64,000 bases of DNA from Hericium rajendrae (taxonomy: Eukaryota; Basidiomycota; Agaricomycetes; Russulales; Hericiaceae). Made by a program: the position numbers and the translations under genes. How positions within the stretch are numbered: the first letter of the stretch is position 1; the number at the start of each line of letters is the position of its first letter. The stretch covers positions 372,001 through 436,000 of the forward strand of contig CM065890.1 of assembly GCA_033439255.1 (NCBI GenBank). The letters run 5' to 3'. Below, piece after piece: positions 44,900 to 63,929 of the stretch. The notes under the pieces are model-generated. The model made no database searches, was not told where the DNA came from, and saw nothing but the letters and a program-made list of their open reading frames with translations.

Positions 44900-46495
44900 T
44901 ATGGCGGTTCGTTTGCACAAAAAATCAGCAGCGAGCAAATACATGGACGCGAGCAAACTTTTTCCGCGCGAGCAAACTTTCAGCGCGCGAGCAAAGATTT
45001 CAACGCGCGAGCAAAGATTTCGACGCGCGAACATATTCTTCAAGAGCGAACAAATATTCCTGCGAGAGCGAGCAAATACTCCTCAGTAGGAGAGCGAACA
45101 AAGATACCTTCATATTCGAAGTCCGAGCATAACTTACCTTGAAGAAACATCCTTTGAAGTTAAGTTCAGGAGCTACAATTGAACCTAACAAACTTCTATT
45201 ACGATATATCAAGACTATACACTACATAGTTCGATCCAAACGGCTGGTTACTTTAAATAAGGAAGCCACACAGCCGTCCCACCCCTGCACGCTGGCCGCC
45301 ACGGGATCTCGAGCCAGCTCGAGCCCCTACCTCGCCCGCCTGCCGCTGCGCCGTCGCTCCTCGCCCCGTTGTGCTCGTCTCCGCTCTTCGTTGCGCACGC
45401 GTGCCGTCACTCGTCGCTGCGCCTGCCACCGTTCCTCGCCCCACGCGCCTGCCTCCACTCCCCACCATGCATGCCCGCCGCACCTCCCCGCGTGGACCCG
45501 CGCCGCTGCGCCGTCGCTCCTCGGTCGTGCGCCCGCCTCAGCTCCTCACCGCGCCCGCGCGCCCGCCTCCGCTCGAGCTGGACCCACCGCTCGTCGCTGC
45601 GCCCGCCCGCCATCGCTCGTCGCTGCGCCCGCGCCCGCCACTCCTCGCCACATGCACGCGCCGCACCTCCCCACGCGCCCGCCGCCGTGCCATCGCTCCT
45701 CACCGCGCACGCGCACGCCTCCGCTTGTCGCTGTGCACGCGCATCGGCGCTCGTCACTGCGCGTGCCTGCCTCCGTTTGTCGCTGTGCATGCGCACTGCT
45801 CCCTGCCACGCGCCCGCCCCCCACCGCGCGCCCGGGCTTGCTCACCGCCGCGCGCCCGTGCCTGCACATCGCCGTGTCCGCTCGCTGCCATGCACGTGCC
45901 TTCTCACCGCTGCGGGTCCGCTGGCTCGCCGCCCTGGCTCTCCGCTGCGTGCTCGTACCTGCGTGCCCATGGTCGTACCCCGTCACGCACCCGCTCTCCA
46001 CCCCGCATGCTCTCTGCAGCGTGCTCACTCACTCACCGTCACGGGCTCGTATACTGCTGCGTGTCTGCTCACCATCGTGCGCCCTCTGCCACCCACTCGC
46101 TTCGCGCCTCGGCTCGCTCTTGCGATTGTGCGATTGTGGTGCGTGGCTCGTTGCACAGCGGCGACAGCGCACAGCGTTGCTTGGCTGACCTAGGCGCTGC
46201 TGCATGTCACGTCACGTTGCGGGCGTGGGAGCGAGTTTGTCGGGGCAGGTGCATGGCATCGGGGAGGGAGTCGGAAGTGGGCAATTGCGTGATGGCACGG
46301 GGCAGCCGTACGGGCAGGGACGGGGAAGGGGGGAAGGTGCAGGAGGGTGACGCGCGTGTTACGGTTCGAGATTCCCGAAACGGAAATTCGGGAATTGCCG
46401 AATGGCGTGGCTTGAAGGCCGAGCTCGCCGAAGCTTGAGGAGCAGCAGCATCGAGCAAGCTTTTGGAGGCATCTCATACTATAATTTATTGATGA
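44900..46495 (+). repeat. Left inverted arm of the Tc1-like element
   Basis: Subterminal GCGCGAGCAAA repeats (44940-45085), then a minisatellite (about 45290-46130), then a block around TTCGGGAATTGCCGAATGGC near 46390-46410. Long overlapping Ala/Pro/His/Arg frames in it come from base composition and are not genes. Confidence 0.8.
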
Positions 46496-46524
46496 TGATA
46501 CTACATGATGATTGTTAAACATGT

Positions 46525-50639: not shown

Positions 50640-52080
50640 TCAATAAATTATAGTATGAAATGCCTTCAAAACCTTGCTCGATGCTGCTCCTCCTCAAGCT
50701 TCGGCAAGCTCGGCCTTCAAGCCACACCATTCGGCAATTCCCGAATTTCCGTTTCGGGAATCTCGAACCGTGACATGCACGTCACCCTCCCCCCTTCCCC
50801 GTCCCTCCCCGTATGGCCACCCTGCGCCATCGCGCCATTGCCCACTTCCGACTCCCCCTATGATGCCATGCACCTGCCCCGACAAACTTGCTCTCATGCC
50901 CGCAACGTGACGTGGCGCGCACCAGCGCTAAGGTCGGCCAAGCAACGCTGTGCGCTGTGCAACGAGCCACGCACTCAACCGCACAACCGCAAGAGCGGGC
51001 TGAGGCGCGGAGCGAGCGCGTGGCAGAGGGCGTGCGATGGTGAGCGGACGCGCAGCAGTGTACGAGCCCGTGACGGTGAGTGAGTGAGCACGCTGCAGAG
51101 AGCATGCGGGGTGGAGAGCAGGTGCGTGGCAGGGTACGACCACGGGCACGCAGGTACGAGCACGCAGCGGAGAGCCAGGGCGGCGAGCCAGCGAGCCCGC
51201 GGCAGTGAGCAGGCACGGGCGCGGCAGCGAGCGGACGTGGCAGTGTGCGGGCACGGGTGCGCGGCGGTGAGCGAGCCCAGGCGTGGGGTGAGGGGCAGGC
51301 GTGTGGTGCAGGGTGGGGGGCGGGTGCGTGCGCAGCGACGAGCGGAGGCACGCGCGTGTGCGCAGTGAGGAGCGACAGCGCGGCGGCGCGTGCATGGGGA
51401 GGTGCGGCGCGCGCATGTGGCGAGGAGCGGCAGGGCCGGGCGCAACGACGAGCGATGGCGGGCAGGCGCAGCGACGAGCGACTGTGCATTTGCACAGCGA
51501 AGAGCGGAGGCGGACACGTGGGGTGAGGAGCGATGGCGTGGCAGCGGGCGGCGGGGAGTGGAGGTGGGCGCGTGGGGCGAGGAATGGCAGGCATGCACAG
51601 CGACGAGCGACGGCGCGCGTGCGTGCGCAACGAAGAGCGGAGGCGAGTACAACGGGGCGAGGAGCGACGGTGCAGCGGCAGGTGGGCGGGGTAGGGGTTC
51701 GAGATGCCGTGGCGGCCAGCGTGCAGGGGCTGTATGGCTTCCTTAACTAAAGTAACCAGCCGTTTAGGTTGAACTATGTAGTGTATAGTCTTAACATATC
51801 ATAATAAAAGTTTGTTAGGTTCAATTGTAGCTCCTGAAGTTGACTTCAAAGGATGACCCTTCAAGGTAAGTTATGCTCAGACTTCGAATATGAGGGTATC
51901 TTTGTTCGCTCTCCTACTGAGGAGTATTTGCTCGCTCTCGCAGAAATATTTGTTCGCTCTTGAAGCTTGAAGAATATGTTCGCGCGTTGAAATTTGCTCG
52001 CGCATTTGAAAACTTTGCTCGCGCACCGAAACTTTGCTCGCGCGGAAAAAGTTTGCTCGCGCGCCAAAAGTTCGCTCGCT
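50640..52080 (-). repeat. Right inverted arm of the Tc1-like element
   Basis: Mirror of 44900-46495: the minisatellite at about 50980-51690, the unique block at about 51740-51890 and terminal GCGCGAGCAAA-type repeats up to 52080. It meets the head of a second copy at 52081. Confidence 0.8.
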
Positions 52081-52629
52081 ATTATGGCGGTTCGTTTGCA
52101 CAAAAAATCAGGAGCGAGCGAACTTTTGGCGCACGAGCAAACTTTTTCCGCGCGAGCAAAGTTTCGGTGCGCGAGCAAAGTTTTCAAATGCGTGAGCAAA
52201 TTTCGACGCGCGAACATATTCTTCAAGCTTCAAGAGCGAACAAATATTTCTGCGAGAGCGAGCAAATACTCCTCAGTAGGAGAGCGAACAAAGATACCCT
52301 CATATTCGAAGTCCGAGCATAACTTACCTTGAAGGGTCATCCTTTGAAGTCAACTTCAGGAGCTACAATTGAACCTAACAAACTTTTATTATGATATGTT
52401 AAGACTATACACTACATAGTTCAACCTAAACGGCTGGTTACTTTAGTTAAGGAAGCCATACAGCCCCTGCACGCTGGCCGCCACGGCATCTCGAACCCCT
52501 ACCCCGCCCACCTGCCGCTGCACCGTCGCTCCTCGCCCCGTTGTACTCGCCTCCGCTCTTCATTGCGCACGCACGCGCGCCGTCGCTCGTCGCTGCGCAT
52601 GCCTGCCATTCCTCGCCCCACGCGCCCGC
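52081..52629 (+). mobile_element. Second, truncated copy of the long-armed element
   Basis: Same order as the head of 44900-46495: terminal TATGGCGGTTCGTTTGCAC, the ~20 bp GCGCGAGCAAA repeats, the unique block and the first ~130 bp of minisatellite. It is cut off exactly where the LTR begins at 52630. It lies end to end with the first copy. Confidence 0.75.
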
Positions 52630-52837
52630 TGGAGTGGGGGCTGCGGGACACAGAGCAGGGTCAGGCAGAGGCAGAGCAGGGTCAGGCAGGGTTAGGAGCA
52701 GGGTTAGGAGCAGGGTTAGGCTAGGTTAGGAGCCGGAGTCAGCCGGAGTCGAGGCTTAGTCAGCGAGCATAGGCATAGGTAGAGAGTCTGTCGTAGCATA
52801 GGCCCTCATCATCATAGAGTCAGTCCTGCCCTCTCCA
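52630..52837 (+). repeat. 5' LTR of the Ty3/gypsy-type fossil
   Basis: 208 bp starting TGGAGTGGGGG and ending GCCCTCTCCA. It contains GCAGGGTTAGG repeats (about 52665-52735). Its end and a GAGGCTTAGTCAGC block resemble the LTR of the nested small element, so the two are related families. Confidence 0.75.
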
Positions 52838-52858
52838 TCTGGTGATGAGGAGTATGTT

Positions 52859-53700
52859 CAGTCACTTAGTGCATTGAGGGAATGCCAGACGAGCTTGACA
52901 AAGTGCCATTGTTGATTGGCCATCCTGCACTGGCCCGTCCGTCACAATGTAGCAGTCATCCAATGACAGGCCTGCCCTTCCTATGTACCAATGGGTCATT
53001 GTCCGGCCTCTAGTCATTTAATCTGTAGTGTCCATTCATCATTGACCGGCCTGTCCTCTGACGTCCATTAGATCATTGGCTGGCCCACTTGATCCCGCAG
53101 GATATCAGTTGCTCGGCCCGTCCTCTATCATCCATTGGGTCATCGACGGGCCTGTCCCCTTATAATGTCTACTGGTCATTCATCATTGACGGGCCCGTCC
53201 TCTGATGTCCAATGGGTCATTGGCTGGCCCTCTCGATCCTGCGGAATATCAATTGCTCGGCCGGTTCTCTATCATCCATTGGGTCATCGACGGACCTGTC
53301 CCCTTATAATGTCTACTGGTCATTCATCATTGACGGGCCCATCCTCTGATGTCCCATGGGTCATTGGCTGGCCTGCTCGATCTCACAGGTTGTCAATTGC
53401 TCGGCCGATCCTCTACCATTCATTGGATCATTGACAGGCCCGTCCTCTTACAATTTCTACTAGTCATTGAGTCATTGGCTGGCCCATCCTCTTACAATAC
53501 CACTGCATATTCATCATTGACTGGCCCGTCCTCTGACGTCCAATGGGTCATTGGCTGGCCTGTCCTTTAACAATGTCTACTGTACATTCATCATTGACGG
53601 GCCCGTTCTCCACTGTCTAATGGGTCATTGGCTGGTCCACTTGATCCTACAAGTTGTCAATTGCTCGGCCCATCCTCTACTGTCCAATGAGATGTTATTG
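52859..53700 (+). repeat. Outer arm repeats of the foldback element, left
   Basis: Several diverged units contain CATTGACGGGCCCGTCCTCT and ATGGGTCATTGGCTGGCC, mirrored at about 56790-57626. Confidence 0.75.
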
Positions 53701-54770
53701 GATCTCATAGAATCCTGCCAGACTCTGTCTTAGACATTTTCAGATCCCATGTGATCCCACGGGATTCTGTTTTGGACATTTTCAGATCCTATGAGATCCT
53801 GTGGGATTCTATCTTAGACATTTTTGAATCCCATGAAATTCCACAGGATTCTGTTTTAGACATTTTTGGATCCCATGGAATCCTGCAGGATTCTGTTTTA
53901 GACATTTTTGGGAATCCCGTGGGATTCTCTTTTGGACATTTTTGGATCCCATGGGATCCTATGGGATTTTGTTTTAGACATTTTTAGGGATCCTGTGGGA
54001 TTCTGTCTTAGACATTTTCTGACTACATGAAATCCCACGGGATTCAGTTTTAGACATTTTTGGAGATCCCGCGGGATTCTGTCTTAGTAGACATTTTCTA
54101 ACCACATGAAATCCCGCAGGATTTTGTTTTAGACATTTTTAGAGATCCCGCGGAATTCTCTTTTGGACATTTTTGGATCCCATGGGATCCCATGGGATTT
54201 TGTTTTAGACATTTTTAGGGATCCCACAGGATTCTGTCTTAGACATTTTCTGACTGCATGAAATCCCGCGGGATTCAGTTTTAGACATTTTCAGAGATCC
54301 CGTGGGATTCTGTCTTAGTAGACATTTTCTAATCACATGAAATCCCACGGAATTCTGTCTTAGACATTTTTAGGTATCCCGTAGGATTCTATCTTAGACA
54401 TTTTTTGACCACATGAAATTCTGCGGAATTCTGTTTTAGATGTTTTCAGATCCCATAGGATCTTGTGAGATTCTGTTTTAGACATTTTTAGATCCCATGA
54501 GATTCTGTCTTAGATATTTTCAGATTACATGAAATCTCACAGACTCTGTCTTAGACATTTTTGGATCCCATAAAATCTTGTCTTAGATGCTTTTAAATTT
54601 CATAGGATCAAATTATATGAGATGTTGTTTTAGACACTTTCAGATCCTATCATGGGATATTACAGGATTTTGTTTTGGATAATCCTGTGAAATCTCACCT
54701 TAGACACTTTTGGATCTTATGGAATTCTGTAGAATTCTGTTATATAGACTTTTGCTTCTTACATTAGCAA
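53700..54770 (+). repeat. ~40 bp satellite, left inner arm of the foldback element
   Basis: About 25 units of TTAGACATTTTxxGATCCC with GGGATTCTGT. They become more diverged and AT-rich towards the centre, and are mirrored at about 55620-56790. Confidence 0.8.
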
Positions 54771-55619
54771 GCATGGTCATTTTTTTGACTCATTGACAGT
54801 GGTCTGACTCATCTGAAAGTAGTCTGACAAGTAGTCTGACTTATGCAAATCAGACCATTGTCAGTGAGTCAGAAAAATGGTCATCTTTGCCTATCTCAGA
54901 TATATTTATCTAGAAATTCAATCTGAGATACCAGAATAGCAAAGTAACAAGTGATATGTAAAAATAGTGATATGTGTCTTGAAGTGTAGTACAATGTCAT
55001 CTGAGTGGTAGACAAGTGGTCTGACTGTCATAGCTGTCCTGGCTCACTTGCAAACTGCAAAATACTGGATAAAATGCTTTGTATAAAACAAAAATTTGTA
55101 AATATCTCAGTTAATTCTGATCCAATTGATATAAAAATGTTACTATATGAAAGGTCCTGAAAAACCTGCATCTAATCCAATATATTGCTAAACATATTCT
55201 CCAATTGAACCATAAAAAACTGCAATATACTGATTTGTACAATTTTTAAGTATAATATTTGTATCATGACCTCAACCAGTCCTTATATAACTTAATGCAT
55301 GTTATATTCAAATTGATTTTAAGGAATCATCTATCAAAGAATGCATATAGTTGTTTAAGCACACATTTTCATATTTGGTAGTTAATATAAGTAAAAAAGT
55401 GTTACATTTGAATTCAGCTCACAAAATGAAGCAAATATATATAGATATATTGTATAGTTAAGTACTAAACTTGGCATAATTGCTTATAGAACAATTTGGA
55501 TGTCAGATCTGAGCATAGCTTGAGATTCTTGGATAATTGCCAAATTGATAAATTACCATTGGATCTCATGAGATGACACTAAATCAGCATTTTGCAAAAT
55601 ATCATGGTAACTCAGGTGA

Positions 55620-56790
55620 AACCTTATAAATTTCAAAAGTATCTAAGACAAAATCCTACAAGACTTGATCTCATGAAATCCAAAAGCATCTAAGACAAGA
55701 TTTTATAAAATACAAAAAATATCTAACATAGAGTCCTACAAGATCTTATGAATCTAAAAACATCTAAAACATAATCTTGCAGGATTTTATGTAGTCTGAA
55801 AATGTCTAAACAGAATCCCGTGGGATTTCATGTGGTTAGAAAATGTCTACTAAGACAGAATCTTATGGGATCTCCAAAAATGTCTAAAACTGAATCCCGC
55901 GAGATTTCATGCAGTCAGAAAATGTCTAAGACAGAATCCTGTGGGATCCCTAAAAATGTCTAAAACAAAATCCTGTGGGATTTCATGTAGTTAGAAAATG
56001 TCTAAAATCGAATCCCGTGGGATTTCATGCAGTCAGAAAATGTCTAAGACAGAATCCCGTGGGATCTCCAAAAATGTCTAAAACTGAATCCCGCGGGATT
56101 TCATGCAGTCAGAAAATGTCTAAAACTGAATCCTGCGGGATTTCATATAGTCAGAAAATGTCTAAGACAGAATCCTGCAGGATCCCTAAAAATGTCTAAA
56201 ACAAAATCCCGTGGGATTTCATGTGGTTAGAAAATGTCTAAAATCGAATCTCGCGGGATTTCATGCAGTCAGAAAATGTCTAAGACAGAATCCCGTGGGA
56301 TCTCCAAAAATGTCTAAAACTGAATCCCGCGGGATTTCATGCAGTCAGAAAATGTCTAAGACAGAATCCTGTGGGATCCCTAAAAATGTCTAAAACAAAA
56401 TCCCGTAGGATTTCATGTGGTTAGAAAATGTCTAAAATCGAATCCCGCGGGATTTCATGCAGTCAGAAAATATCTAAGACAGAATCCCGCAGGATCCCTA
56501 AAAATGTCTAAAACAAAATCCCATAGGATCCCATGGGATCCAAAAATGTCCAAAAGAGAATCCCGCGGGATTCCCAAAAATGTCTAAAACAGAATCCTGC
56601 AGGATTCCATGGGATCCAAAAATGTCTAAAACAGAATCCTGTGGAATTTCATGGGATTCAAAAATGTCTAAGATAGAATCCCACAGGATCTCATAGGATC
56701 TGAAAATGTCCAAAACAGAATCCCGTGGGATCACATGGGATCTGAAAATGTCTAAGACAGAGTCTGGCAGGATTCCATGAGATCCAATAA
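55620..56790 (-). repeat. ~40 bp satellite, right inner arm of the foldback element
   Basis: Inverted counterpart of 53700-54770. A 78-residue frame opens in both arms with one residue difference, which gives a feel for the arm identity. Confidence 0.8.
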
Positions 56791-59700
56791 CATCTCATTG
56801 GACAGTAGAGGATGGGCCGAGCAATTGACAACTTGTAGGATCAAGTGGACCAGCCAATGACCCATTAGACAGTGGAGAACGGGCCCGTCAATGATGAATG
56901 TACAGTAGACATTGTTAAAGGACAGGCCAGCCAATGACCCATTGGACGTCAGAGGACGGGCCAGTCAATGATGAATATGCAGTGGTATTGTAAGAGGATG
57001 GGCCAGCCAATGACTCAATGACCAGTAGAAATTGTAAGAGGACGGGCCTGTCAATGATCCAATGAATGGTAGAGGATCGGCCGAGCAATTGACAACCTGC
57101 GAGATCGAGCAGGCCAGCCAATGACCCATGGGACATCAGAGGATGGGCCCGTCAATGATGAATGACCAGTAGACATTATAAGGGGACAGGCCCGTCGATG
57201 ACCCAATGGATGGTAGAGAACCGGCCGAGCAATTGACATTCCGCAGGATCGAGAGGGCCAGCCAATGACCCATTGGACATCAGAGGACAGGCCCGTCAAT
57301 GATGAATGACTAGTAGACATTATAAGGGGATGGGCCAGCCAATGACCCAATGGACGGTAGAGGACGGGCCAAGTAACTGATATCCTGCGGGATCAAGTGG
57401 GCCAGCCAATGATCCAATGGACATCAGAGGACAGGCCAGTCAATGATGAATGGACACTACAGATTAAATGACTAGAGGCCGGACAATGACCCATTGGTAC
57501 ATAGGAAGGGCAGGCCTGTCATTGGATGACTGCTACATTGTGACGGACGGGCCAGTGCAGGATGGCCAATCAACAATGGCACTTTGTCAGGTTCACCTGG
57601 CATTACCTCAATGCACTAAGTGACTGTTTTATGTGTGATGAGAGTGTGAGTTCGACATACGCAGCTCTGTCTTTGAGTCTTAGTGTCCTTTTTGTCGGGT
57701 GCTCTTTCCCTGTTCCAGTGTTCTCAGGTGTTCCAGCATCCTTCGGTGTCCTCGTGCCCTTATCACAATTCTAGCGCTCTCGTGTCGGAGATCGCAACCA
57801 ATCAAAGATATAGTCGTTCTCTCTTACCCTTCGCCCCATCGTTAAAGAAAATGACCAACTCACCAAACTGCATCCAGCCAAACCTCCTACGGCGAAACCA
57901 AAGAAAGCAAAGAAAGACCGTAAAGCCCACCCGCGCGATGTCCAAGGCCGTTTCATTACAGAGGAAGCAGCAGCGGAAGCCGCAAAGCTGTCGTCCCCCG
58001 ACTCTCCCGTCCTACCCCAGTCTGAAGGCTCGTTCGACTCGCCCGCCACAGGAACACCATTATCGTTCGGATACGAGTCCGGACAAGACTCGTGGACAGC
58101 GTCAGGATTCTCTAGCGCAGTCGCCAGTCACCTCTCAACCCGCGGACGCAACATTTCATTATCGGGTCGCCACCCTTACGGTGTCATCAACCTCAACAGC
58201 TCGCCGGAACGCGCCTCTGACACGCAGGCTGCTGAACCCGCCGACGCTTTAACCGGCATCGAGTTCGTCCTCCCCTCGTTTGACCCACCCGACGATCCCC
58301 CAGCCGCCGATTCCGACTTGGACGCCGAGCCCCCATCCCTCACGCGCGTTAAAGTGGAGGAGCCCGAAATCCGCCTGACACCAGCACACCCAGTCCCCAA
58401 AGTCGACCTCAGCGTAGCCCCGTCTCCGCAGCGATTGCCTTTCCCCACATTCACGCCCGCCACGCAGCTACAGCCACTTTCGCTACCGGCGTACACATCC
58501 GCACCGCTGTACGTACCTCCGCCTCCACCAACCCAACAGCCACCAGTCATGGCCACGACGCAGCCCGTCGCAGGCTTCCACGGGTTCTTTAGAGGCACCG
58601 ATGACGATGAGCACATGCTCGGGAACTTCCTCCGCCTCTACCAGCGCTACATGGAGAGCCTCGGCAAGTCGCCGGGTCCGGATTGGATGACGGGCTTCCC
58701 CAATTACCTCTACGAGGACTCGCCCGCTGAAGACTGGTACAAGGGCCTGATACCAGCAGCCTTAGTCGACTGGCCCACGTTCCACACCGCGTTCCTCGCA
58801 CGGTGGAAGCTCGCGAAGAAAGCCGTGAAGACGCCGGCCGAGCTCCAGCAGGAGATGCTCGAGTACCGCCTGAAAGCGGATGTTTTGGGCACGAAGGTCA
58901 TGGTCGGGGGCAGAGAAGTGTGGGCGCATGTCCAGTGGGCGACGCATATGCTCGAGCTGGCAGAGAAAGCGGGCATCGCCGCCTCCACGCAGAACATCTG
59001 GCTCATCAGGCGAGAACTTCCCGACCTCCTCAAAGAGTTCGTTTCCGAAACACACGCGGATTGGCCGGCGTTCGCGCAAACGGTCATCGACATCGACATC
59101 AGCAAGCTGCGCGACAAAGTCGAGGCCAAAAACCGCCGCGACAGCGAGCTCGCGCAAGTGCAAGCCACCATACACCGCCTCGAGTCCCAGTTCCAACACC
59201 TGAACACCGCGCCGGCTCCGTACCCGCCCGCCACCGCACCTCCGTACCGTCGATCGCCAGCAGGCCCCAGCCCTGCCGCCGCGCACCCACCCACTCCAGC
59301 GATGCAGGCGAACGTTAGCACGCCACTGAGGCGTGACGCGGTTCGCCAGGCCATGAACACGTTGCCGCACCATCCCGACACAGACACCGGCCGTGCCGCA
59401 TACCAGGCGCAACTCACCCGCTTCACCGAGACCCACAGTTTCAGCCCGTACGTCACTGAACGCACGCCCGTGCCCCTATGTCCCGGCACCGAGCCCCTGT
59501 GCTCAGGCGAATGCTGGTTCTGCGGCATGCAAGGCCACCGCGGGGACATGTGCAAGGCTCCGCCGGAAGCGCGCGTCCCGGACGTCGAACGCAAGTGGCG
59601 CTCGTACTGTCAACGGACGATGCGGGAAGCGGCGCCGCGCGTGCAGTATGTCGCAACGGACACGCCGTACGAGCCGAGGGTCTCATGGGTGGACAGTCTG

Positions 59701-61546: not shown

Positions 61547-63929
61547 TGGGACAGTGGGTCTGGGGAGCACGAGAGGAGGCCACTAGCCGAGCTTAGTCAG
61601 CATCGTCCATAGCGAGGTTCCTCATGTGTAGCTAGCCTTCCTTATCGCATACCATCACTGGGCATAGCTATAGCCCTTGGCCTCTCCATGTGGTGATGAG
61701 AGTGTGATTCGACTCATTTCAGCTTCGAGTCGAGTCTGTCCTGTCTTTTTCTGGCTTTTTCGTCTTTTTTTCGTGCCAGTTTTCGTCTCTCGCGTCACAC
61801 CTCGTGTTTCGTTCACGCGCCTCGTATCGCGTGCCATTTCTCCTCGCTTTCCTGCGTCCTGCGACCCCTACCTGCGTTTTCTAGTGTCTAGCTCCCATCG
61901 CGTGTCCCGCGCGCCCATTTTCCGCACCCGCGAACCGTTTTCACGCCCCCACTGTCGCGTTCTACACCACAACACGAGCCCCGCACGATTACCCGATATG
62001 GGCAAGAACAAGCGCGCCGCGAAAGCTGCTTGGAGAGCAGCAGCAGCAGCAACTACAACGCTACCAGCAGCTACTCCGAGCCCCCCGCATTCGCTCGACA
62101 CGCACGCCGCCGCACCCGACGTCGGCGAACTCCCCGTGCGCACACCACAGCAACCACGTGAGAGCCCGACAGCGCCCGCAGCAGCCGCGCGTCCCGCGCA
62201 ATTCCCCGCACCCTCGCACGTTCGCGAGCCAACAGCTCCCGCTGCCGACGCCAAGCCCGCATCCACCGTTGAAGACGCAACGCAGACGCACGACGGCCAC
62301 GCGTCGTACGCGTGTCCCGCACGCCACGCCGCCCCATCCGCGTTAGCCGTGCCCACCTCCCCGTCCCGCGTTGACAACACGCCAGACGTGCTCGCAACCA
62401 CCACCCCTGATCCACACCACACGCACGACGGACACACACCGAACGCGTGTGCCGCGACACGCGAACGCGAACCCCGACCCGCACCAACCACGACCGCAGA
62501 CACCCAGCATGAGCCAGCCGCCGCCTCTCCGTCACAGCCCACGCAACCCACGCCGTTCCCGGCGCTGTCCACGCCCTCCACCGTTGCCATGGCCACGCTA
62601 GCAGCCTGCGTACACGCTGCAGGCCCACTGGCCTTTCTCGTCACGACACCCACGCACGCGTTCGACGATGAGTGTGCCGAACTCCCCGTCGCATCCGGCA
62701 GCCTCACGAGCCCCGCGCCCGCGATGCGCGCGCACGACCCACCTCCGCGTCTGGCGACGACCCGAGAGGAGATCCATCCAGATCTCCTCGCGCAGATCAT
62801 GGAAGACGGCCGGCGGTTGGAACGACGAGCGGCGAAGCTCCAGCCGCAAGACGAGGAGTGGAAAGCAGCATACCAGCAGGGATGGCACGAGGGGTATGAG
62901 ACGGGGCTCGATGACGGGTATTCGGAGGTAAGCCCTCCTCCCACACCCGTTCGTACCGACGTAGGCACGCAATCGGACGACCCCACGCCCCCGCTGGCCA
63001 CTCCTGCCAGCCCACGCCTCTTGACTCCACGCGTCGATGCAGCCGTGCAGGCTGATACCCTGCCCCGTTCACCTTGCTCGCATGTCGACCCGCGCATCCC
63101 GCCGCCCGCATCTCCGGCGCGCAGCATCGCTGTCGCCGTCGTTCAGACGGACGACGCCATCCCGCCCACCCGCATCGACTCCGCCTCCCAAACGCTCGTC
63201 AATGACACGATTCATGCCGATTCATGCCTGTTGATGCCCGCAATCGCATGTGCCCCACATACCCCTTCACTCGACGATATTCCGACGTCACACGCCTCTT
63301 TTACGACTCCTATTAATGACCCTTCAACAGCACATACGACTTTCCATTCATTCTCATGGGCAGACGACGTCGCGTCCCTTCCTGTCAATAATGTCACCCC
63401 GCTCGCCTTATCACCGACTCGGGATTTTTCAGTATTGCGTAGTCCTTCCTCACGGCCACCATTCGAGTCCCTCCAGCGTCGTGCACGTCGATCTCGCACA
63501 CGTCCTGCATGCCGTACTCGTTCACAGCCACCACCACCACCTCCGCCTCTTCCGATCATCACACGGTGCCATCCATCCGGTCTACGCACAGGTCGACCAT
63601 CAGTCACCATCCAATCATTGCCAGCTCCGACGCACGTGGTGCCACACGTAGCTCCTCTCGATTGGGATGCAGACCCACGTTTGTGTGAGCTGGGTCGTGT
63701 TCTTCAGGGTTTGGGTTGGGTTCGTTCTGGTTCTGGGTGAGGTTCTTCCGAGGCGACGAGGACGTCGCCATTTTCGAGGGGGGCACATGGGACAGTGGGT
63801 CTGGGGAGCACGAGAGGAGGCCACTAGCCGAGCTTAGTCAGCATCGTCCATAGCGAGGTTCCTCATGTGTAGCTAGCCTTCCTTATCGCATACCATCACT
63901 GGGCATAGCTATAGCCCTTGGCCTCTCCA
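61547..63929 (+). mobile_element. Small non-autonomous LTR element nested in the Ty3-type fossil
   Basis: Two 142 bp LTRs (61547-61688 and 63788-63929, TGGGACAGTGGG...CCTCTCCA) are identical as read. A 4 bp repeat ACGT flanks the insertion. The primer-site region starts TGTGGTGATGAG, and a purine tract (GAGGGGGG) precedes the 3' LTR. The interior has one open frame and no protease, RT or integrase, so it depends on another element, probably of the family it landed in. Identical LTRs mean a very recent insertion; it looks whole. Confidence 0.85.
61998..63740 (+). CDS. Open frame of the nested small LTR element (gag-like or unknown)
   Basis: About 580 residues from MGKNKRAAKAAWRAAAAATT. Ala/Pro/Thr-rich and largely disordered, with one helical charged block (from 'REEIHPDLLAQIMEDGRRLE' to about 'WHEGYETGLDDGYSE'). 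No zinc knuckle, protease or polymerase motif. The function is unknown; by position it corresponds to the gag slot of an LTR element. Confidence 0.5.
   Translation: MGKNKRAAKAAWRAAAAATTTLPAATPSPPHSLDTHAAAPDVGELPVRTPQQPRESPTAPAAAARPAQFPAPSHVREPTAPAADAKPASTVEDATQTHDGHASYACPARHAAPSALAVPTSPSRVDNTPDVLATTTPDPHHTHDGHTPNACAATREREPRPAPTTTADTQHEPAAASPSQPTQPTPFPALSTPSTVAMATLAACVHAAGPLAFLVTTPTHAFDDECAELPVASGSLTSPAPAMRAHDPPPRLATTREEIHPDLLAQIMEDGRRLERRAAKLQPQDEEWKAAYQQGWHEGYETGLDDGYSEVSPPPTPVRTDVGTQSDDPTPPLATPASPRLLTPRVDAAVQADTLPRSPCSHVDPRIPPPASPARSIAVAVVQTDDAIPPTRIDSASQTLVNDTIHADSCLLMPAIACAPHTPSLDDIPTSHASFTTPINDPSTAHTTFHSFSWADDVASLPVNNVTPLALSPTRDFSVLRSPSSRPPFESLQRRARRSRTRPACRTRSQPPPPPPPLPIITRCHPSGLRTGRPSVTIQSLPAPTHVVPHVAPLDWDADPRLCELGRVLQGLGWVRSGSG

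Follow-up and report, generated by a model that had tools for sequence, protein, structure and literature searches.

Introduction

Kyakuja transposons make 7-bp target site duplications, lack terminal inverted repeats and carry CcTET-like genes, and two Laccaria families of them have CA..TG termini (Kojima 2025, PMC12730594; here, as with the other published systems, our comparisons draw on parts of the cited reports). We have analysed a stretch of 64,000 nucleotides from the mushroom Hericium rajendrae (assembly GCA_033439255.1, contig CM065890.1, positions 372,001 to 436,000 of the forward strand), referred to as the window, that contains a 4,786-bp palindromic element with satellite arms. 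We find that this element is one of many copies of a transposon. Very probably it is a foldback form that belongs to the KDZ superfamily and lacks autonomy, and within that superfamily Kyakuja is the best fit. The family resembles Kyakuja in its 7-bp duplications, in its want of terminal inverted repeats and in the presence, within large copies, of a KDZ transposase together with a CcTET-like TET/JBP gene; unlike Kyakuja as described in the portion of the report on which we draw, it has a long subterminal palindrome, satellite arms and a foldback form, and it agrees with the CA..TG termini of the two Laccaria families at one end only (PMC12730594).

Other described systems share some of these features. 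Galileo, a member of the P superfamily in Drosophila, likewise has a foldback form with long, internally repetitive arms and 7-bp duplications, its middle segments lie in opposite orientation in two copies, and it too is connected with inversions, but its transposase is a different one and its inverted repeats reach the very ends (PMC2775673, PMC3573991). The arm repeats of Galileo hold transposase-binding sites (PMC3688188). Tetris, known from two Drosophila species, is similar in being a non-autonomous foldback element with satellite-like tandem repeats in its arms, but differs in its 8-10 bp duplications and in that, in the part of the account used here, an autonomous partner was not found (PMC4079207). 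Among basidiomycetes, the active elements KDZ1-3 of Cryptococcus also have a KDZ transposase with a CxC-type domain; they differ in having 139-241 bp terminal inverted repeats, a length of 9-11 kb and duplications of 8 bp (KDZ1) or 4-8 bp (KDZ2 and KDZ3), and the sections cited describe no foldback form (PMC12810828). KDZ elements are abundant in the mushroom Marasmius oreades as well, where non-autonomous families, mostly of less than 1 kb, have been classed by their ends and duplications; the KDZ ends of that species lay outside our comparison, and overlap with them is possible (PMC8290104). In the open-licence literature, consulted in part and with the figure of M. oreades KDZ ends outside the search, we found no earlier description of a foldback family in the KDZ superfamily.

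Results

A multi-copy palindromic transposon

The element occupies positions 52850-57635 of the window and has a perfect 7-bp duplication, TGATGAG, on both sides. We searched the genome assembly that holds the window (46.8 Mb in 19 contigs, cited below as contig:position) and found at least 40 full-length matches to the outer 200 bp among the best 40 of 88 candidates, at least 38 of them outside the window copy. A 21-base end motif occurs at 69 places, none with more than two mismatches, as against 0 for a reversed control pattern, and by position and orientation these motifs resolve into 32 two-ended elements and five lone ends. Perfect 7-bp duplications surround 28 of the 32 two-ended elements (18 of 20 bounded short copies, a larger element on C8 and nine of 11 further pairs), and these 28 duplications comprise 27 different sequences without a clear consensus. 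When the flanks of the window copy are joined, single alignments cross the junction at C3:1657545 (84%), C10:1978547 (78%) and C17:316701 (85%), and ten shorter paralogue matches likewise span it. A nested foldback copy on C16 also has an empty site, which corresponds to positions 55523-55814 of the window copy (99.7% over 293 bp). The palindrome is therefore a real transposon. The initial annotation had proposed a foldback-type transposon that arrived by transposition instead of by local inversion, and had tied this to the existence of other copies, clean target duplications and empty sites elsewhere in the genome; the copies, the perfect duplications and the uninterrupted paralogues all uphold that proposal.

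We also considered a local inverted duplication or an assembly artefact; arms that are nearly identical are known to cause errors in assembly. Against both stand the perfect 7-bp duplications, of 27 different sequences, that surround copies in this 19-contig genome, and the empty sites of the window copy and the nested C16 copy; we regard the chance of either as negligible.

The features of the element in the window, with their strands, are as follows.

52843..52849, + strand: target site duplication, left copy TGATGAG; the same 7-mer stands at 57636-57642, and the single-copy joined flanks match uninterrupted paralogues
52850..52858, - strand: side B terminus GAGTATGTT, outside the palindrome; the same 9-mer in the copies read, a few with one change
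52859..53700, + strand: left arm, outer part, with a unique end and the 144-bp satellite (tandem repeats 53033-53492)
53712..54600, + strand: left arm, inner part, with a 42/76-bp satellite and its CCGCGG core, the variation of which is nearly all transitions
54741..55640, - strand: AT-rich centre lacking long frames, turned either way relative to the ends in different copies
55763..56779, - strand: right arm, inner part, 42/76-bp satellite (from tandem-repeat detection)
56790..57626, - strand: right arm, outer part, 144-bp satellite and unique end (from arm alignment and tandem repeats)
57627..57635, - strand: side A terminus TTTTATGTG (family form TTTCATGTG, from comparison of copies)
57636..57642, + strand: target site duplication, right copy TGATGAG (by match to the left copy)

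In self-alignment the arm at 52859-54060 pairs with that at 56425-57626 as a gap-free inverted match of 1,202 bp at 97%, and with gaps 52859-54370 aligns to 57626-56113 at 92%. Identity in successive 200-bp bins, from the outside inward, is 0.97, 0.93, 0.985, 0.995, 0.995, 0.96, 0.86, 0.83 and 0.68. The palindrome had been annotated correctly, as had the mirrored order of its two satellite families, which have a 144-bp period outside (53033-53492 and 56993-57452) and a 42-bp period inside (53724-54503 and 55763-56779), and its gene-free, AT-rich centre: no frame of 150 amino acids or more is present inside the element, and the centre has 31% G+C. The arms had been put at about 1.9 kb, but the near-perfect portion is about 1.2 kb; identity does fall towards the centre as proposed, dropping inward of about 54,050, but its maximum (0.995) lies mid-arm and not at the outside, where the outer two bins have 0.93-0.97. 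With long, internally repetitive inverted arms and a middle that has little or no coding sequence, the element classes as a foldback element.

The outer 9 bp are CACATGAAA on side A and GAGTATGTT on side B, with one change in a few copies. These termini are unlike each other and are not inverted repeats, the palindrome beginning inside them, and their end bases are CA at one end and GA at the other (..TC on the same strand). The initial annotation had suggested a diverged duplication at 52842-52856 and 57635-57648; a duplication does lie there, but it is the perfect 7-mer and not a diverged one, as the element reaches 9 bp past the palindrome on each side. A Mutator-like 9-bp duplication at the edge of the palindrome is ruled out, since the copies show nine more element bases and 7-bp duplications.

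Larger elements with the same ends carry KDZ and TET/JBP matches

The spacing of several end pairs is 22-51 kb, and that of one is 74 kb. Seven pairs in the 22-51 kb range enclose matches to both KDZ transposase and TET/JBP dioxygenase, the latter an enzyme of the DNA-demethylation type. The C8 copy, of 23,572 bp, has the family ends, inverted arms of about 2.2 kb and an outer satellite similar to that of the foldback, together with a different second satellite that has a 29-bp unit. Its profile matches are Tet_JBP (8.9e-23), KDZ (PF18758, in L048; 6.9e-24) and CxC2 (2.8e-26, this being the one copy examined for CxC2), and its TET frame has two matches in PDB, to CcTet (7vpn, 1.6e-22) and to a JBP1/TET-domain protein (8jkk, 2.2e-22). 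Genome-wide there are at least 172 KDZ matches (from the best 150 of 223 candidates) and 46 Tet_JBP matches. All nine Tet_JBP frames of 293 amino acids have a KDZ match about 2.4 kb away; seven of them stand between paired ends (C1, C2, C3, C4, C8, C14 and C18), and the remaining two (C17) have a lone end about 26 kb away or nearer.

Over the outer ~245 bp the C8 and window copies are 87-89% identical. The shared ends and this similarity point to the KDZ enzyme as the mover of the foldbacks: the KDZ transposase of the larger copies may act on foldbacks and large copies alike through the ends that they have in common, and the outer satellite could serve as an array of transposase binding sites. 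The family could in principle belong with the Mutator-like or the P-type (Galileo-like) foldbacks and owe its movement to an unrelated transposase that happens to use similar ends. Most foldbacks have been assigned to Mutator (PMC4079207), and Galileo too makes 7-bp duplications (PMC2775673). We consider this highly improbable, however, as the outermost bases are not inverted repeats, the duplication is of 7 bp and not 8-10 bp, and the same ends enclose elements with KDZ matches.

We have thus filed the family as KDZ and Kyakuja-like on account of its 7-bp duplications, its lack of terminal inverted repeats and its CcTET-like gene, with CA at one end only. Several points weigh against this assignment. 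The inner satellite and centre of the foldback have no detectable similarity to the C8 copy, and even the outer 245 bp are just 87-89% alike, so that the genome may hold an autonomous partner nearer to the foldback. Only one end agrees with the published CA..TG termini. The placement in Kyakuja within KDZ is provisional, as is that of the TET/JBP gene in the AG (CcTET-like) type.

We note several further observations on the larger copies. An autonomous copy was sought among the copies of 10-12 kb and rejected, as their long frames look like gypsy pol by eye; among the three, C2b was confirmed to have a reverse transcriptase domain. The family ends with the 74-kb spacing are those of C3:1395118-1469175, where the flanking 7-bp duplication, CCAGATC, is perfect; the interval would be one very large element or the outcome of heavy nesting. 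Near three contig ends, at C1:2356, C17:2370 and C18:384793, a single insertion recurs (flank GTTGCCG), apparently as a subtelomeric duplication that carries a TET-KDZ element. Eight of the 46 Tet_JBP matches are weak and fall below the cut-off, one of them inside a 25-kb copy on C9 (C9:549710-550021), and these are perhaps a divergent TET type.

Exchange between arms and a reversible middle

Comparison of the outer ends of 20 short copies shows that the two sides remain distinct at their extremities: 18 of the 20 A ends have another A end as their nearest neighbour, 19 of the 20 B ends have another B end, and every side-frequency difference of at least 0.5 lies within the outer 46 bp. Beyond 46 bp and up to 640 bp, the largest side difference among 258 variable columns is 0.45, and over this stretch the sides are indistinguishable, some 590 bp having been exchanged between them. 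L025, the A side of which has become B type, has two outer ends that agree at every one of 260 bp, as after gene conversion.

The middle, by comparison, has no fixed orientation. In 12 copies the 900-bp centre has one orientation and in seven the opposite one (19 of the 20 rows, with C16_outer_2, which is the nested copy's centre seen again, left out, and C3c giving no centre match). The centre tree needs seven orientation changes (6-7 on bootstrap trees), no fewer than shuffled labels do (mean 5.9), and orientation does not follow ancestry. Among the large insertions, as judged by eye, the TET gene runs from side A to side B in C1, C3, C4, C8 and C17:461718 and in the opposite direction in C2 and C14, the coding interior thus being flipped in two of seven when the subtelomeric C1/C17/C18 insertion is counted once. 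We conclude that the middle has turned repeatedly with respect to the ends. The probable cause of the arm exchange and of the flips is recombination, with gene conversion, from one inverted arm to the other. Weighing against these readings, satellite arms are hard to align and the arm-exchange test leans on the alignment past the first 100 bp, and the centre tree has one well-supported branch, such branches alone forcing only two flips.

Probable inversions between neighbouring copies

The four two-ended copies that lack a duplication of their own form two pairs of neighbours, at C2:4143022-4172772 and C10:2100326-2139288. Read from side A to side B, the flanks of the first pair are CTAGTCC..CCGTAAC (L027) and CCGTAAC..TGAAGGT (L040), and those of the second pair, on C10, are GTCACGG..GAGGTCG and GAGGTCG..CCTGAGA. 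The members of each pair face opposite ways along the contig, and one 7-mer is common to both, in inverted form and at complementary ends, so that the right flank of the first copy equals the left flank of the second while the other two flanks differ (both of two pairs); the number of shared 7-mers expected by chance over 24 flank pairs is 0.003. In both pairs the flanks are arranged as reversed-ends transposition with inversion would leave them. Reversed-ends transposition of maize Ac/fAc likewise yields an inversion and a single new target duplication, placed at ends that belong to two different copies; it differs in that the element is Ac/Ds, the duplication is of 8 bp and the events were seen in new alleles, whereas here they are inferred from one genome (PMC8225341). 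By this route the transposase would join the ends of two neighbouring copies, and the joining would invert the segment between donor and target.

The segments could instead have been inverted by ordinary homologous recombination between oppositely oriented copies, as in Galileo of Drosophila buzzatii, where the 2z3 inversion arose by recombination with both duplications exchanged (PMC2775673). The long, near-identical inverted arms of the copies and the apparent frequency of arm exchange speak for this, and the split target of the C10 pair is contiguous in paralogues at C2:1149744 (read base by base) and C11:725139 (from the best 40 of 184 candidates), a finding that marks the breakpoint and is compatible with both models. 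Recombination predicts, however, that both 7-mers match in inverted form, and one matches per pair. Two successive events would predict a third copy with the leftover flanks, but the other 28 two-ended copies match themselves, and of the five lone ends the four that were compared do not fit the leftover flanks (C17:2370 was outside the comparison). We therefore consider recombination unlikely, though still to be taken seriously, and the inversions to be probably the work of the transposase. A point against the latter is that we looked in the genome for an intact paralogue of the L027/L040 target and found none.

Satellites and CpG

The outer 144-bp satellite, in the form common to foldback and autonomous copies, appears to be the better candidate for transposase binding, by analogy with the arm repeats of Galileo. 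CCGCGG is present in the inner satellites of both foldback and autonomous copies, and it is the top hexamer of the C8 interior (78 in 18.5 kb, against 4.2 expected), in coding and non-coding sequence alike (L046-L048). As a general KDZ motif it was rejected, since another TET-KDZ region has only two in 7.5 kb. On the assumption that CCGCGG came first in the foldback core, the changes from it are nearly all C to T or G to A, and these transitions peak at two inner positions (699 and 678 of 1,410 sites in 20 copies). The CpG count of the centre is zero across 54751-55640, and this CpG-free centre, together with the transition-varying cores, would accord with the idea that TET in cis guards copies from CpG loss. 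That idea is unsupported, as the outer 255 bp are unbiased: 94 sites are CpG in C8 and TpG/CpA in the foldbacks, and 106 sites are the reverse.

The host element and its neighbourhood

The foldback is inserted in a gypsy-type long terminal repeat (LTR) element, of which one further feature is relevant here.

52630..52818, + strand: 5' terminal repeat of the gypsy-type host element; 189 of 189 bases identical to C13:438589-438777

The insertion point is in the primer-site region, just inside this terminal repeat, as originally annotated; the description of the host as a fossil does not hold, because its terminal repeats are identical. Identical 189-bp repeats suggest that the host element is young and the foldback younger still. 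Weighing against the youth of the host, its terminal repeats have no matching flanking duplication (CCCGC before, CATCA after), which makes their outer limits uncertain. RNase H domains of the host element lie directly past the window edge; in Pfam searches its first frame gave no gag domain and its second frame a reverse transcriptase match below threshold.

A second palindrome at 51566-52627, whose 515-bp arms are 99% alike around a spacer of 32 bp, adjoins the 5' terminal repeat of the host; part of it has ten genome matches, two of which are its own arms, and a diverged relative lies at 44900-46504. Identical 142-bp direct repeats at 61547-61688 and 63788-63929 surround about 2.4 kb that, judged by position, seems to interrupt the gypsy reverse transcriptase of the host.

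Discussion

We have found that a satellite-armed palindrome in H. rajendrae is a transposon, very probably a foldback derivative of a Kyakuja-like KDZ element, with satellite arms, a reversible middle and probable transposase-made inversions. We lean somewhat towards a model in which, in this TET/JBP-carrying Kyakuja lineage, the whole interior, including the gene cassette of the autonomous copies, behaves as a recombinational flip-flop between the long satellite arms. In this model the polarity required by the transposase is preserved in about 46 bp at each end, and that enzyme also inverts segments of the chromosome when it joins ends of different copies.

The assignment, if correct, would place a foldback family within the KDZ superfamily, and the palindromic form, unlike Tetris, would have a likely autonomous partner within its own genome. 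The contrast between a polar 46-bp end and freely exchanged arms may bear on how long inverted arms evolve in unrelated superfamilies. Lastly, the two neighbouring pairs provide two candidate natural inversions that may be attributed to a fungal DNA transposase.

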